Made by a program: the position numbers and the translations under genes. The notes under the pieces were generated by a model. That model did not search any database. It was given only the letters and a program-made list of their open reading frames with translations, and was not told where the DNA came from. This document shows positions 15,876 through 36,177 of a DNA stretch of 64,000 nt, one piece after another. The number at the start of each line of letters is the position of its first letter. Positions within the stretch are counted from its first letter, which is position 1. Source of the DNA: Amycolatopsis benzoatilytica AK 16/65 (lineage in GTDB: Bacteria > Actinomycetota > Actinomycetes > Mycobacteriales > Pseudonocardiaceae); contig NZ_KB912942.1 in the NCBI RefSeq assembly GCF_000383915.1, forward strand, positions 4,089,795 through 4,153,794. Direction: 5' to 3'.

Positions 15876-16256
15876 GACACCTATTGTCCCCCCGCCTTGC
15901 CGGCACCGGCCGGCACGGGGGCCCGGCACGTCCGCGAGCCGGCAAATCCGCCTGTGAAGGGCCCCTTGCCGGACTTGGATTCCGGCAAGGGGCCCTTCAC
16001 AGAACACTCGCCGCGGCCCTGCGCCACCCGGCCGAAAGGTCGCCGGAAAGCTCGGCCGCCGAACGATGCGACCCACGGCGAAACGCCGCCGAAATCGCGG
16101 CGAAAAGCGTCCGATCAAATGTCCGCACAATTGGGAAACCGCAGGCAGATTCGCCGCCCATGCACATTCGAACCCATTCCGCACCCCCCTTGTGCGCCTT
16201 CTCCCACCATCCGGACGCGCTTGGTCGACCTTCTGCACGCGTGGCAATCTGAGCCG
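15876..16256. other. Divergent intergenic region between hemW and the sulfate operon
   Basis: About 380 bases without a gene. It contains palindromic element copy 3 and must carry the hemW promoter and the promoter of the sulfate assimilation operon. A weak hexamer pair TTGGTC (16221) and CAATCT (16245), 18 bases apart, lies just ahead of the leader peptide. No regulator site was recognised. Confidence 0.5.
15953..16001. repeat. Intergenic palindromic element, copy 3 (perfect)
   Basis: Two perfectly complementary 21-base arms, TGTGAAGGGCCCCTTGCCGGA and its reverse complement, around a 7-base loop (CTTGGAT). It is the best-preserved copy in the window and lies 77 bases upstream of hemW, in a divergent promoter region. 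That placement does not fit a simple terminator. Confidence 0.9.
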
Positions 16257-16343
16257 GTGAGTCCTGCTGGTGTCCTTCTCGTGGCGCGCCGCCACGTCGA
16301 CCTGCTCCGGGTCGCGAGCGCGCTCTGCCGCGCCGTCCGCTGA
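16257..16343 (+). CDS. Leader peptide of the sulfate assimilation operon
   Basis: A 28-residue open frame with GTG start and TGA stop whose product contains RRHVDLLRVASALC, the hallmark of the short actinobacterial leader peptides found ahead of cysteine and sulfur genes. Cys24 is the single cysteine, near the C-terminus (SALCRAVR). The frame ends 107 bases before the sulfite reductase ATG. Leaders of this kind are thought to let ribosome stalling at the cysteine codon control expression of the genes behind them. Here the genes behind make sulfide for cysteine, which fits feedback by cysteinyl-tRNA supply. The peptide itself probably has no other role. Confidence 0.8.
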   Translation: MSPAGVLLVARRHVDLLRVASALCRAVR

Positions 16344-16450
16344 CTCCGCCGAAGCCTGACGCCTGACCAGCCCACCGCACCCGGACCGCAGGACCCGCGC
16401 CGCACCGTCGCCGCGCCGGGGCCGCTCCCACACCCGCTCGGAGGATTTCC

Positions 16451-18151
16451 ATGTCCGCACCCCCGCGTGAAAAGCCCGCGAAGGGCGCCGCGCCCCGGTC
16501 GCGCCCGAAACGCGGCGAGGGTCAGTGGGCACTCGGCTACCGCGAGCCGCTGAACCCGAACGAGCAGTCCAAGAAGGACGACAATCCGCTGAACGTCCGC
16601 GCGCGGATCGAGAACATTTACGCGCACCGCGGTTTCGACGCGATCGACCCGGGAGACCTGCGCGGCCGGTTCCGCTGGTACGGCCTCTACACCCAGCGCA
16701 AGCCGGGCATCGACGGCGGCCGCACCGCGCAGCTGGAGCCCGGAGAGCTCGAAGACAAGTACCTGATGATGCGGGTGCGCACCGACGGCGGCTCGCTCAC
16801 CACCGAGCAGCTGCGGGTGATCGGCGAGATCTCGCAGGCGAACGCACGCGATACCGCGGACATCACCGACCGGCAGAACATCCAGTACCACTGGATCGGG
16901 ATCGAGGACGTGCCGTCCATCTGGTCCCGGCTCGAAGCGGTCGGCCTGTCCACCACCGAGGCGTGCGGCGACAGCCCGCGCGGGATGCTCGGCTCGCCGG
17001 TCGCCGGGATCGCCGCCGACGAGGTGCTCGACGCCTCGCCCGCGCTGGCCGAGATCCGCCGCCGTTACCTCGGCGACCCGCGATTTTCGAACCTGCCGCG
17101 CAAGTTCAAGACCGCGATCTCCGGCCTGCCGGACATCGTGCACGAGATCAACGACATCTCCTTCGTCGGCGTCGACCACCCCGAGCACGGCCCCGGCCTG
17201 GACCTGTGGGTCGGCGGCGGGCTGTCCACGAACCCGATGCTCGCGGTGCGGCTGGGCGTGTGGGTCCCGCTGGACGAGGCGGCGGACGTGTGGGAAGGCG
17301 TCATCTCGATCTTCCGCGACTACGGCTACCGCAGGCTCCGGTCCCGGGCCCGGCTGAAGTTCCTGGTCAAGGACTGGGGCCCGGAGAAGTTCCGGGAAGT
17401 CCTCGAAACGCAGTACCTGAAGCGGAAGCTGCTCGACGGCCCGGCGCCGAAGAACCCGGACACGCCGGTCGACCACGTCGGCGTGCACCTGCAGAAGGAC
17501 GGCAACTTCTACGTCGGCGCCGCGCCGATCGCCGGCCGGGTGTCCGGCAGCACGCTGGTCGCCCTCGCCGACGCGGCCGAACGGGCCGGATCGCGCCGGG
17601 TGCGGCTGACCCCGCTGCAGAAGCTGGTCGTGCTCGACGTGCCGCAGCGCAAGATCGCCGCGCTGCAAGCGGAAATGGCCGAGCTTGGCCTGCAGACCGA
17701 GCCGTCGCCGTGGCGGCGCAGCGTGATGGCCTGCACCGGGCTGGAATTCTGCAAGCTGGCCATCGTCGAAACGAAGGTCCGCGCCCAGCAGCTGGTCGCC
17801 GACCTGGAGAAGTCGCTGGCCGACATCAACGCGCAGCTGGAAACGCCGGTCACGGTGCATCTCAACGGCTGCCCGAACTCCTGCGCGCGGGTGCAGACCG
17901 CGGACATCGGGCTCAAGGGCCAGATCGTGACCGACGCCGACGGCAACCAGGTCGAAGGCTTCCAGGTGCACCTGGGCGGCGGCCTCGGCCTGGACGCGGG
18001 CTTCGGGCGCAAGCTGCGCGGCCACAAGGTCACCGCGGGCGAGCTGGCCGAGTACGTGGAACGCGTGGTCCGTGCGTACGTCGCGGACCGCGAACCAGGC
18101 GAACGATTCCCGCAATGGGTGGCGCGGGCCGACGAAAGCGTGCTGCAGTGA
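16451..18151 (+). CDS. sir: Ferredoxin-dependent assimilatory sulfite reductase
   Basis: A 566-residue siroheme/[4Fe-4S] enzyme reducing sulfite to sulfide with ferredoxin. The cluster cysteines are Cys428 and Cys434 (ACTGLEFC) and Cys474 and Cys478 (NGCPNSCARVQ). The N-terminal half has WYGLYTQRKPG and TTEACGDSPRG, the Tyr and Cys positions that are cross-linked beside the active site in M. tuberculosis NirA/SirA. The N-terminus is a basic extension (KPAKGAAPRSRPKRG). It heads an operon with cysH, cysD, cysN and a sirohydrochlorin chelatase. Its stop overlaps the cysH GTG by 4 bases. Neighbours make sulfite rather than nitrite the substrate. Confidence 0.96.
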   Translation: MSAPPREKPAKGAAPRSRPKRGEGQWALGYREPLNPNEQSKKDDNPLNVRARIENIYAHRGFDAIDPGDLRGRFRWYGLYTQRKPGIDGGRTAQLEPGELEDKYLMMRVRTDGGSLTTEQLRVIGEISQANARDTADITDRQNIQYHWIGIEDVPSIWSRLEAVGLSTTEACGDSPRGMLGSPVAGIAADEVLDASPALAEIRRRYLGDPRFSNLPRKFKTAISGLPDIVHEINDISFVGVDHPEHGPGLDLWVGGGLSTNPMLAVRLGVWVPLDEAADVWEGVISIFRDYGYRRLRSRARLKFLVKDWGPEKFREVLETQYLKRKLLDGPAPKNPDTPVDHVGVHLQKDGNFYVGAAPIAGRVSGSTLVALADAAERAGSRRVRLTPLQKLVVLDVPQRKIAALQAEMAELGLQTEPSPWRRSVMACTGLEFCKLAIVETKVRAQQLVADLEKSLADINAQLETPVTVHLNGCPNSCARVQTADIGLKGQIVTDADGNQVEGFQVHLGGGLGLDAGFGRKLRGHKVTAGELAEYVERVVRAYVADREPGERFPQWVARADESVLQ

Positions 18152-18843
18152 CCTCAGTGACGGACTACCGGGCGCTGGCCGAACGCGCCGAGAAGGACTT
18201 GGCCGAGGCGACCGCCGAGGAGGCGCTGCGCTGGACTGTCGAAACCTTCGGCGACGACTTCATCGTGGCGTCGAACATGCAGGACGCCGTGCTGATCGAC
18301 CTCGCGACGAAGGTCAAGCCCGCGGTCGACGTGCTGTTCCTGGAAACCGGCTACCACTTCGCCGAGACCCTCGGCGTCCGGGACGCGGTGCAGACGGTGT
18401 ACCCGGATGTCCGGATCGTCAACGCGCAGGCCGAGCAGAGCGTCGCCGAACAGGATGCCGAGTACGGGCCGAAGCTGCACGAGCGCGACCCGGGCCAGTG
18501 CTGTTTCCTGCGCAAGGTGGTGCCGCTGCGGAAGACGCTCGGCACCTACTCGGCGTGGGTCACCGGGGTGCGCCGGGTGGACGCGCCGACCCGCGCGAAC
18601 ACGCCGATCGTCACCTGGGACGAGCGCAACGGCCTGGTGAAGATCAACCCGATCGCGGCCTGGACCGACGACGAGTTCAACGGTTACCTGCACGCAAACG
18701 GGATACTGGAGAATCCGCTGGTCTCGATCGGCTACCTCTCGATCGGCTGCGCGCCGTGCACCGCGAGGGTCGAGGCGGGCGCGGATCCGCGCAGCGGCCG
18801 GTGGGCAGGGCAGGCGAAGACCGAGTGCGGACTGCACGGCTGA
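18148..18843 (+). CDS. cysH: Adenylyl-sulfate (APS) reductase
   Basis: A 231-residue thiol-dependent reductase forming sulfite from adenylyl sulfate. Cysteines Cys118-Cys119 (DPGQCCFLRKV) and Cys201 and Cys204 (SIGCAPCTARV) form the CC...CxxC motif that binds a [4Fe-4S] cluster. This motif marks the APS-using type rather than the PAPS-using type of enteric bacteria. The catalytic Cys227 is in the C-terminal TECGLHG. There is no cysC kinase in the operon, which agrees with direct use of APS. It overlaps sir by 4 bases. Confidence 0.95.
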   Translation: MTSVTDYRALAERAEKDLAEATAEEALRWTVETFGDDFIVASNMQDAVLIDLATKVKPAVDVLFLETGYHFAETLGVRDAVQTVYPDVRIVNAQAEQSVAEQDAEYGPKLHERDPGQCCFLRKVVPLRKTLGTYSAWVTGVRRVDAPTRANTPIVTWDERNGLVKINPIAAWTDDEFNGYLHANGILENPLVSIGYLSIGCAPCTARVEAGADPRSGRWAGQAKTECGLHG

Positions 18844-18854
18844 GGGAAGGACAC

Positions 18855-19775
18855 ATGACGACCTTGGAGCCCGCTGCCGCGGCAGCAGTAGACAATCTCG
18901 CCGCCCTCGAATCCGAGGCCATCCACATCTTCCGCGAGGTAGCCGGGGAGTTCGACCGCCCGGTGATCCTCTTCTCCGGCGGCAAAGACTCGACACTGAT
19001 GCTGCACCTGGCGATCAAGGCGTTCTGGCCGGCGCCGGTGCCGTTCCCGCTGCTGCACGTGGACACCGGGCACAACTTCGACGAGGTCCTCGAGTTCCGG
19101 GACCGGGTCGTCGAGAAGCACGGTCTGCGGCTGGTCGTCGCGAAGGTCCAGGACTGGATCGACGACGGCCGCCTCGAAGAACGCGCCGACGGCCTGCGCA
19201 ATCCGCTGCAGACCACTCCGCTGCTGGAGACGATCGCGGAAAACAAGTTCGACGCGGTGTTCGGCGGCGGCCGCCGCGACGAGGAACGCGCCCGGGCCAA
19301 GGAGCGGATCTTCAGCCTGCGCAACGCGTTCGGCCAGTGGGAGCCGCGCCGGCAGCGGCCCGAGCTGTGGAACCTCTACAACGGGCGGCACCGGCCGGGC
19401 GAGCAGGTCCGGGTGTTCCCGCTGTCCAATTGGACCGAAGCCGACGTGTGGAACTACATCGCCCGGGAAAACGTCGAGCTGCCCTCGATCTACTACGCTC
19501 ACCAGCGCGCGGTCTACCAGCGCGACGGCATGTGGCTGAGCGAGGGCCCGTGGGGCGGGCCGCGGCCGGGCGAGCGGGTCCGCGAGCTGAGCGTGCGCTA
19601 CCGGACCGTCGGCGACGGTTCCTGCACCGGCGCGATCGAGTCCGTCGCCTCCACTGTGGACGAAGTGATCGCCGAGGTGCAGGCGTCCCGGCTCACCGAA
19701 CGCGGGGCCACCCGCGCCGACGACCGGATGTCCGAGGCCGCCATGGAAGACCGCAAACGGGAGGGCTACTTCTGA
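18855..19775 (+). CDS. cysD: Sulfate adenylyltransferase subunit 2
   Basis: The ATP-pyrophosphatase-fold subunit (306 residues) that adenylylates sulfate to APS. The PP-loop is ILFSGGKDSTLMLHLA. Other conserved stretches are HVDTGHNFDEVLEFRD, FGGGRRDEERARAKERIFS and FPLSNWTEADVWNYI. The ATG is 11 bases after the cysH stop, with GGGAAGG as ribosome site. Its stop overlaps the cysN ATG by one base, matching the need for equal amounts of the two subunits. In M. tuberculosis cysDN lies elsewhere, so its insertion between cysH and the chelatase is a difference in operon layout. Confidence 0.96.
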   Translation: MTTLEPAAAAAVDNLAALESEAIHIFREVAGEFDRPVILFSGGKDSTLMLHLAIKAFWPAPVPFPLLHVDTGHNFDEVLEFRDRVVEKHGLRLVVAKVQDWIDDGRLEERADGLRNPLQTTPLLETIAENKFDAVFGGGRRDEERARAKERIFSLRNAFGQWEPRRQRPELWNLYNGRHRPGEQVRVFPLSNWTEADVWNYIARENVELPSIYYAHQRAVYQRDGMWLSEGPWGGPRPGERVRELSVRYRTVGDGSCTGAIESVASTVDEVIAEVQASRLTERGATRADDRMSEAAMEDRKREGYF

Positions 19776-21037
19776 TGTCGAGCCTGTTGAGGCTGGCCAC
19801 CGCGGGCAGCGTGGACGACGGGAAGTCCACTCTCGTCGGACGGCTGCTGTACGACACCAAGTCCGTCCTCGCCGACCAGCTGGACGCGGTCACCCGTGCC
19901 TCGGTCGACAAGGGACTGTCCACTCCGGACCTTTCGCTGCTGGTCGACGGCCTGCGCTCGGAACGCGAGCAGGGCATCACCATCGACGTCGCGTACCGGT
20001 ACTTCGCGACGCCGAAGCGGTCGTTCGTGCTCGCCGACACCCCGGGCCACGTGCAGTACACCCGCAACACGGTCACCGGCGCGTCCACCGCGCAGCTGGC
20101 GGTGCTGCTGGTCGACGCGCGCAACGGCGTGGTCGAGCAGACCCGGCGGCACGCGGCGGTCCTCGCGCTGCTCGGCGTGCCGCGGCTGGTGCTGGCGGTG
20201 AACAAGATCGACCTGGCCGGCTACGACGAGAACACCTTCAGCGTGATCGCCAAGGAGTTCACCGCGCACGCGGAATCACTGGGCTACGACTCGTCCGCGG
20301 TCGTCGCCATCCCGGTGTCCGCGCTGGTCGGCGACAACGTCGCCGACCGTTCCGCGCGGACCCCGTGGTACGACGGCCCGACGCTGCTGGAGCACCTGGA
20401 AAACGTCCCGGTGGCCCCGGATCCGCACGATTCCGCGCTGCGTTTCCCGGTGCAGTACGTGATCCGCCCGCGCACCGCCGAACACCCGGACTACCGCGGG
20501 TACGCCGGCCAGATCGCGGCCGGCACGGTGCGGCCGGGCGACGAGATCGTCGTGCTGCCGCAGGGCATCCGCAGCCGGGTCGAGCGCATCGACACCGCCG
20601 ACGGGCCGCTCGAAGAGGCCGGTGCCGGCACCTCGGTGACGCTGCTGCTGGCCGACGACATCGACATCAGCCGCGGCGACCTCATCGCGGCCGCCGACGC
20701 GCCGCCGGAGGTCACCGACGAGATCACCGGCACGCTGTGCTGGCTGTCCTCGAAGCCGCTCAAGACCGGCGCGCGCGTGCTGGTCAAGCACGGCACCCGG
20801 ACCGTCCAGGCGATGACCGGTCAGCTGCACGCCCGCTTCGACGAGCAGACTTTGTCCAGTGTGGACGCTCCGGACAGCCTGGGACTCAACGACATCGGCA
20901 GCGTGAGCCTGCAGCTGGCCGAGTCGCTGCCGGTGGACGACTACGGCGTCAGTCCGCGCACCGGCGCGTTCCTGGTGATCGACCCGAAGGACGGCGACAC
21001 CCTCGCCGCCGGACTCGTCGGCGAGCGCTTCGCATGA
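19775..21037 (+). CDS. cysN: Sulfate adenylyltransferase subunit 1 (GTPase)
   Basis: The regulatory GTPase subunit of ATP sulfurylase, 420 residues. GTP hydrolysis drives APS formation by CysD. EF-Tu-like motifs are present: G1 GSVDDGKST, G2 region EQGITIDVAYRYF, G3 DTPGHVQY and G4 NKIDLAG. Two beta-barrel domains follow. The length shows there is no fused CysC (APS kinase) domain, unlike mycobacterial CysNC, consistent with reduction at the APS level. Its stop overlaps the chelatase start by 4 bases. Confidence 0.96.
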   Translation: MSSLLRLATAGSVDDGKSTLVGRLLYDTKSVLADQLDAVTRASVDKGLSTPDLSLLVDGLRSEREQGITIDVAYRYFATPKRSFVLADTPGHVQYTRNTVTGASTAQLAVLLVDARNGVVEQTRRHAAVLALLGVPRLVLAVNKIDLAGYDENTFSVIAKEFTAHAESLGYDSSAVVAIPVSALVGDNVADRSARTPWYDGPTLLEHLENVPVAPDPHDSALRFPVQYVIRPRTAEHPDYRGYAGQIAAGTVRPGDEIVVLPQGIRSRVERIDTADGPLEEAGAGTSVTLLLADDIDISRGDLIAAADAPPEVTDEITGTLCWLSSKPLKTGARVLVKHGTRTVQAMTGQLHARFDEQTLSSVDAPDSLGLNDIGSVSLQLAESLPVDDYGVSPRTGAFLVIDPKDGDTLAAGLVGERFA

Positions 21038-21774
21038 CGCCTCCCCTGGTCGCCGTCGCGCACGGCAGTCGCGATCCCCGCTCCGCCGCCACGGTGCGGG
21101 CGCTGGTCGACGTCGTCCGCGCGCAGGCGCCGGGGCTGGCAGTGCACGAATCGTTCCTGGACCTGTCGCGACCGCTGGTCACCGACGTGCTGCGCGGCCT
21201 CTACGCCCGCGGGCACCGCTCGGCGGTTGTCGTGCCGTTGCTGCTGGGCAGCGCTTTTCACGCCCGCGTCGATCTGCCCGCGCTGATCGACGAGGTCACC
21301 GCGGAGTGCCCGGGGTTCCGGATCCAGGTGTCGGACGTGCTCGGCGCCGATCCGGCGCTCGAAGCGGTCGCCCTGGACCGGATCGCCGATGCCCGCCGCG
21401 ACGGCGCCGGAGTGCTGCTCAGCGCGGTCGGCTCGTCCAACCCGGAGGCCAACGCGGTGGTCGCCGGGGTGGCGGCGCGCTGGGAAGAGCGGCTGGGACT
21501 GCCGGTCTGTGCAGCGTTCGCAAGCGCCACGCAGCCGGACATCCCCGCGGCTGCGGCCCGGTTGGGGTCTCGCGGCGTGCGGCATCTGATCGTGGCGTCC
21601 TGGTTCCTGGCGCCCGGACTGCTGCCGGACCGGATCGCCGCGCTGGCGCGCGAGGCCGACCCGGGTGCGTTCGTCGCCGAGCCGCTGGCCGACGACCCGC
21701 GGGTAGCGGACGTCGTGATCGGCCGGTACGCGGCAGCGGTCGCCGGTTTGCTGCGGACCGCGCGGGCCGCCTGA
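21034..21774 (+). CDS. Sirohydrochlorin chelatase (CbiX/SirB family)
   Basis: A 246-residue chelatase that would insert iron into sirohydrochlorin to give siroheme, the cofactor of the sulfite reductase at the head of this operon. It is a duplicated CbiX fold. The first half has the metal/catalytic His in VAVAHGSRDPRSA and GSAFHARVDLP. In the second half the corresponding loop reads LLSAVGSSNPEANA, so the His is not conserved there. Overlap with cysN by 4 bases makes it part of the operon. The cobalt chelatase of B12 synthesis is the alternative, but context favours iron. Confidence 0.9.
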   Translation: MTPPLVAVAHGSRDPRSAATVRALVDVVRAQAPGLAVHESFLDLSRPLVTDVLRGLYARGHRSAVVVPLLLGSAFHARVDLPALIDEVTAECPGFRIQVSDVLGADPALEAVALDRIADARRDGAGVLLSAVGSSNPEANAVVAGVAARWEERLGLPVCAAFASATQPDIPAAAARLGSRGVRHLIVASWFLAPGLLPDRIAALAREADPGAFVAEPLADDPRVADVVIGRYAAAVAGLLRTARAA

Positions 21775-35907: not shown

Positions 35908-36040
35908 CCGGCCATCCTCTCACCCGGCCGCCGGTCCGCCCGCCCCGGTGATGTGGGCCGCCTCCATGGCACGAGCCGATCACCATGTCGTACGGTGTAC
36001 CCGAGGACGCGCCCGGCGGGCGCTCCGACAATCGAATACC

Positions 36041-36177
36041 GCTCATCCAGAGGGGCAGAGGGAACGGCCCGACGAAGCCCCGGCAACCGGCGTACAGCCT
36101 GTCATTCCGCGATCGCGGAATAGCTGACGACCACGGTGCCAATTCCGGCCCGCTTCGGCGGGGCAGATGAGGAAGGA
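36041..36177 (+). ncRNA. SAM-I (S-box) type riboswitch upstream of thrC
   Basis: The leader contains the S-box core in order: CTCATCCAGAG, then GGGGCAGAGGGAACGGCCC with the kink-turn GA/AG layout, GACGAAGCCCC, GGCAACC, a P3 hairpin (ATTCCGCGATCGCGGAAT), GGTGCCAATTCC, and a P4 hairpin closed by CTTCGG. The closing helix P1 pairs CTCATC (36042-36047) with GATGAG (36166-36171). The 3' side of P1 abuts the ribosome site GAGGAAGGA, 10-15 bases before the thrC ATG, so control is probably at translation initiation. No terminator hairpin with a T-run is present. The core with kink-turn argues for SAM-I rather than SAM-IV. Confidence 0.85.

Follow-up and report, generated by a model that had tools for sequence, protein, structure and literature searches.

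We propose that expression of the sir operon of Amycolatopsis benzoatilytica AK 16/65 is set by a translated, probably leaderless, cysteine-sensing leader of the NF042934 family, a reading that we hold with moderate confidence. The leader frame, which occupies 28 codons at 16257..16343 on the forward strand of the window (i.e., the whole 64,000-nt stretch of DNA that was analysed), is by comparison with its relatives a real, conserved leader peptide of an already catalogued family. In the proposed mechanism, transcription would start at or beside the GTG at 16257, and ribosomes would load on the 5′ end of the message and translate the conserved peptide. A shortage of charged tRNA-Cys would make them pause at codon 24, and expression of the downstream genes would rise. 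A cysteine response is likely, given the gene context and the mycobacterial relatives of the leader, and its direction is inferred.

The leader, its probable promoter and the sir operon

The leader opens with GTG, closes with a TGA ending at 16343 and translates as VSPAGVLLVARRHVDLLRVASALCRAVR; its sole cysteine is codon 24 (TGC, 16326-16328) and 107 nt separate its stop from the ATG of sir (16451). These coordinates confirm the first-pass annotation, which had described a single-cysteine frame of this length at this distance from sir. Its identification as a leader peptide is likewise upheld by the spread of the family, by codon-level conservation and by NCBIfam NF042934 (cis_reg_atten, “putative leader peptide”), which matches residues 6-24 at 38.2 bits, above the cut-off of 27. 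The leader shows no difference from this model, which is a name without a tested function. In a six-frame search of the genome the same leader scored 36.6 bits, and it was the only match above the cut-off in its own genome (150 of 309 candidates scored); a second search of that genome gave one match at E 0.001 (117 of 117 candidates scored). The 14 control genomes contained no match above the cut-off, and ten of them had weaker ones (E up to 10). A DNA pattern guessed for the leader matched nothing.

The frame is open farther upstream, for 253 codons counted from a TTG. The start at 16257 is nevertheless supported because 46 of the 49 distinct sir leaders have an ATG or GTG 15-21 nt ahead of the family match, and because some relatives (L021, L031 and L037-L039) have in-frame stops just 5′ of the conserved start. 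A probable promoter, read from the sequence, lies at 16221..16250 on the forward strand and comprises TTGGTC (16221-16226), 18 nt and CAATCT within TGGCAATCT (16242-16250); a sigma-70 consensus scan found no site. Because TGGCANNCT ends 6-7 nt 5′ of the start codon in all 22 distinct sir leaders from the same genus (several of them near-identical), the leader message is probably leaderless. Such a message also fits the rarity of Shine–Dalgarno-like sequences 5′ of the start, seen in one of the 46 sir leaders that carry ATG or GTG where expected, and in 4 of 118 leaders across all groups when starts were assigned more crudely. Two further elements lie 5′ of the promoter: CTCCCACCATCCGG at 16201-16214, which by eye recurs slightly changed in same-genus loci and is a possible regulator site, and a perfect 22-nt inverted repeat with a 7-nt loop at 15952-16002.

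Downstream of the leader, a Shine–Dalgarno sequence read as GGAGG (16440..16444) precedes sir (16451..18151), which codes for a member of the sulfite/nitrite reductase family. All its NCBIfam matches fall below the equivalog cut-offs and, with the operon context, its product is probably a ferredoxin-dependent sulfite reductase. It is followed on the same strand by cysH, for phosphoadenylyl-sulfate reductase (18148..18843; NF002537, 260.7 bits, cut-off 154), cysD and cysN, for the small and large subunits of sulfate adenylyltransferase (18855..19775; TIGR02039, 462.8 bits, cut-off 396.6; and 19775..21037; TIGR02034, 545.7 bits, cut-off 336.1), and a sirohydrochlorin chelatase-like gene (21034..21774; best NCBIfam match CfbA, 80.5 bits, below the cut-off of 120). 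The five genes overlap or lie at most 11 nt apart, and their order and NCBIfam matches agree with the operon content proposed earlier. Elsewhere in the window, a SAM riboswitch (RF00162, 79 bits) is found at 36040-36173 on the forward strand.

The conserved peptide and its cysteine codon

Across the 49 distinct sir leaders the amino acids are kept while synonymous bases vary, and six columns (L, R, D, L, R, C) never change residue even though their codons differ. The median dN is 0.15 versus a dS of 1.06, taken over the 771 pairs with usable values among the 903 that 43 cores allow, figures that show a direction rather than provide a test, dS near 1 being close to saturation and the sequences being related. 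The HVDLxRVASAxC frame, put forward earlier as a leader motif, is thus found in the relatives with its amino acids held and its codons changing. This conservation also bears on a different mechanism, nascent-peptide arrest, wherein RRHVDLxRVASA in the exit tunnel would stall the ribosome at the cysteine, perhaps sensing cysteine itself, and one cysteine codon would then be enough. In keeping with it, the cysteine stands nine residues past the aspartate in 138 of 140 loci (all but L118 and L130; L088, which is not a leader, was excluded). Moreover, counting from that cysteine, Arg −13 and Asp −9 are fixed, Leu −8 is present in 116 and Arg −6 in 118 of 120 distinct leaders, but these leaders were chosen for a cysteine at that distance and the profile search itself favours the motif. 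Judging from the sequences, we regard arrest as unlikely.

A single cysteine is present in 63 of 125 distinct peptides and in 31 of the 39 in the sir group. The conserved cysteine is encoded by the rare UGU in 87 of the 120 distinct leaders, as against 20 of 347 cysteine codons in the downstream genes. With a stricter anchor, which drops 11 loci, TGT accounts for 78 of 111 (Fisher p 3e-42, a value that ignores relatedness, near-identical genes having been left in). At the other columns from −14 to +5 of the 120 leaders, at most 35% of the C/T-ending codons end in T. Of the 99 cysteine codons elsewhere in these leaders 20 are TGT, and of the 33 leaders with a further cysteine at −7, 28 use TGC for that residue and TGT for the conserved one. 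Sorting the loci into genus-by-downstream-group cells gives 72, of which 55 have TGT only, 16 TGC only and one both; at least one TGT occurs in 21 of 31 genera, the other ten having TGC only. The exceptions are the sir-group leaders (25 TGC versus 17 TGT), which include the window’s own UGC, and those of the TauE-type group (5 versus 1). The preference for T is partly general to the leaders, since their aspartate codons also use it beyond expectation (33 of 111 versus 138 of 3073 in the downstream genes). We also considered the serine three codons before the cysteine, which is AGC in 82 of 94 serine codons versus 496 of 2363 in the downstream genes, and rejected it as a codon-specific signal: the residue found most often in its place is glycine (GGN; 16 of 120), and descent via glycine is a simple explanation.

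As to how this codon is read, a pattern for tRNA-Cys with anticodon GCA gave one match in the window’s own genome and was present in each of 20 genomes, and its ACA form in none of the 20, this being a pattern rather than a full tRNA census. Because of this distribution UGU is probably read by G–U wobble, and a separate isoacceptor as its cause is not supported. ARAGORN names tRNA-Cys(gca) at four checked loci, all outside the window’s own genome. We tentatively suggest, while rating it as doubtful, that members of the family sense cysteine through a single codon, the conserved cysteine being kept as the rare UGU, and that the window’s UGC leader is a relaxed version. In this view, G–U wobble may delay the ribosome at a single defined codon following a conserved peptide that binds in the tunnel. 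A literature search for the codon among open-licence papers found, among the papers listed, no report of a UGU preference in such leaders, and at the level of the family it may be new.

The spacer and the possible relay of a pause

The spacer (16344..16450, forward strand; 107 nt) has more C than G, no terminator and no unusual structure. The first-pass annotation had taken it to be of the right size for a stalling-dependent RNA switch, and this part of its proposal is not supported by prediction. The length of the spacer varies from 36 to 233 nt in the 49 distinct sir leaders (34 of them at 80 nt or more). It diverges while the leader stays conserved: in five same-genus sequences the leader aligns ungapped through the cysteine codon and the spacer does not. 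A search of 16100-16500 found no intrinsic terminator, the element that a classical transcription attenuator calls for. The RNA of the window folds worse than its shuffles (z +1.43, with 188 of 200 being as stable or more so) and, of 32 local stretches, 24 fold worse than their own shuffles and one falls below z −1.5. Folding with a ribosome at codon 24, which had been suggested along with the switch, is not predicted to free the sir Shine–Dalgarno sequence. Its predicted opening cost is 6.2 kcal/mol in the free RNA, 6.0 with a ribosome at the cysteine codon and 6.2 with one at the stop codon, compared with shuffle means of 6.6, 6.4 and 6.5 (40 shuffles) or 8.8, 8.2 and 8.5 (8 shuffles), the ribosome footprint in this model being assumed rather than measured.

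A classical RNA switch, in which the position of the ribosome would decide between hairpins that terminate transcription or mask the ribosome-binding site of sir, is therefore not supported by the folding models in the window copy, and we consider it distinctly unlikely. Several observations do speak for it. The CTCCG directly after the leader stop might base-pair with the ribosome-binding site of sir, and a CTCC-type sequence is seen by eye right after the stop in many sir loci (L019, L040 and L044 are without it). In 32 long-spacer loci, where mean z ranges from −0.91 to +0.59 over stretches covering at least ten loci, the lowest mean belongs to a 50-nt stretch inside the leader frame that starts 70 nt before the end of the stop codon, with z below −1.5 in 9 of the 32. 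Canestrari et al. are said to have found in 2020 that stalled ribosomes in M. smegmatis free a hidden ribosome-binding site, and such a release is the model for that organism; unlike in the mycobacterial cysteine leaders, no structure sequestering the Shine–Dalgarno sequence is predicted at the window copy. Among the short-spacer leaders (15 distinct), placing a ribosome at the cysteine codon lowers the opening cost by a mean of 1.55 kcal/mol versus 0.12 for shuffles (relief above 1.5 in 7 of the 15), but a ribosome at the stop codon helps equally (1.74) and nine of these leaders have a 36-nt spacer in common. In the 34 long-spacer leaders, including that of the window, the mean relief is 0.16 versus 0.20 for shuffles and exceeds 1.5 in two. 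Relief of sequestration by a ribosome is thus predicted, on average, only for short-spacer leaders.

For the cysteine-sensing leader, we favour a relay of the pause through translation-dependent access of Rho or hand-over of the ribosome to sir, rather than through alternative hairpins, because the spacer is C-rich, poorly conserved, unstructured and devoid of a terminator. The (C−G)/(C+G) skew is 0.30 in the window’s spacer and 0.17 in the stretch upstream of it; over 118 loci with gaps of at least 50 nt, the mean spacer skew is 0.23 versus 0.03 upstream and 0.10 in the gene. The argument for Rho is one of base composition: such a C-rich spacer would suit it.

The leader family and its downstream genes

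Leader matches at E 0.001 are present in 37 of 40 relatives, all 37 above the NF042934 cut-off. In the taxonomic family of the window at least 193 of 200 genomes have a match and at least 184 one above the cut-off, with all 44 genera represented and the seven genomes without a match all from genus g42. Across the phylum the figures are at least 25 and at least 21 of 296; both surveys give possible lower bounds, with at most 42 and 29 candidates per genome scored, respectively. We examined the first downstream gene at 141 loci, a non-random set of 81 loci from genome searches and 60 hand-picked from the listed matches, with 12 weaker matches from the window’s own genome (L004-L015) dropped and the genes called by our own script. 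These include 53 genes of the sir group, 14 with DUF4395, 12 of the rhodanese group (the frames at L029, L050 and L051 are doubtful), seven cysteine dioxygenases and smaller groups, among them what we take from their sequences to be cysteine synthase, a TauE-type exporter and an ABC permease. Among 13 downstream genes scanned from outside the window, 12 have a Pfam or NCBIfam match (L035 has none in NCBIfam). Several belong plainly to sulfur metabolism (cysteine dioxygenase, rhodanese, sulfatase, APS kinase and sulfite/nitrite reductase) and others not obviously so (an MFS transporter, a 2OG-Fe(II) oxygenase, DUF4395 and the dicarboxylate-symporter family). In the window’s own genome two weaker matches, of 21.7 and 21.2 bits, precede a DUF4395 gene and a cysteine dioxygenase gene; the latter is a leader-like peptide below the cut-off, located outside the window (L003, 1501-1554), and similar leaders precede a cysteine dioxygenase gene in genus g65. 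In genomes G035 and G039 two leaders adjoin back to back (L139/L140 and L137/L042), one of each pair lying ahead of an APS-kinase-group gene and the other ahead of a sir-group gene.

Copies ahead of many different genes, and up to 16 matches in a single genome of the family survey, are what is expected of a cis element. They make it very improbable that the peptide is instead a small protein working in trans, strong as its amino-acid conservation is. That it is a chance frame inside a conserved promoter region is barely credible, for although promoter-like conserved sequence lies directly 5′ of it, the dN well below dS, the retained start and the family match contradict this. The cysteine-sensing reading, in turn, is favoured by the share of sir-group genes and by the several others of plain sulfur metabolism. 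Against it count the downstream genes not obviously related to sulfur and the presence of the same kind of leader before the gene for cysteine dioxygenase: this enzyme degrades cysteine, and a simple response to starvation fails to account for its leader.

Cysteine-rich mycobacterial leaders are described as proposed attenuators in PMC4633059, and PMC13236596 cites attenuation by such leaders in M. smegmatis as shown, referring to the work of Canestrari et al. as translation attenuation. Mycobacterial Ms4527A (NF042936) and Ms5788A (NF042933) resemble the window’s leader in being short, probably leaderless ORFs with R-R-x-V-D-L before cysteine genes, but it scores 29 and 22.9 bits against these models, below their cut-offs of 45. 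The mycobacterial polycysteine attenuators have a cluster of cysteines, whereas the window’s leader has one in 28 codons; this counts against a cysteine sensor, yet one cysteine is usual in leaders of the NF042934 type. In PMC8632094, uORFC-8-2 before cysS in Rhodobacterales is likewise a short ORF with conserved cysteine codons read as cysteine attenuation, but it differs in its two tandem cysteine codons, dominance of UGC, intrinsic terminator, phylum and gene. The leu, trp, ilv and other leaders of Streptomyces lividans (PMC8079986) are also short, mostly leaderless ORFs before amino-acid genes; they differ in sensing other amino acids and, in several cases, in having terminators, and no cysteine leader is among the eight tabulated there.

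Thus, the window’s leader adds to a kind of leader that is already catalogued, and it stands where one would be expected: a cysteine-type leader is located at a sir operon, within a named family that, as far as we have seen, is without a tested mechanism outside mycobacteria. The preference for UGU, together with the occurrence of one kind of leader before both sulfite reductase and cysteine dioxygenase, raises the question of how a single cysteine codon can sense cysteine.
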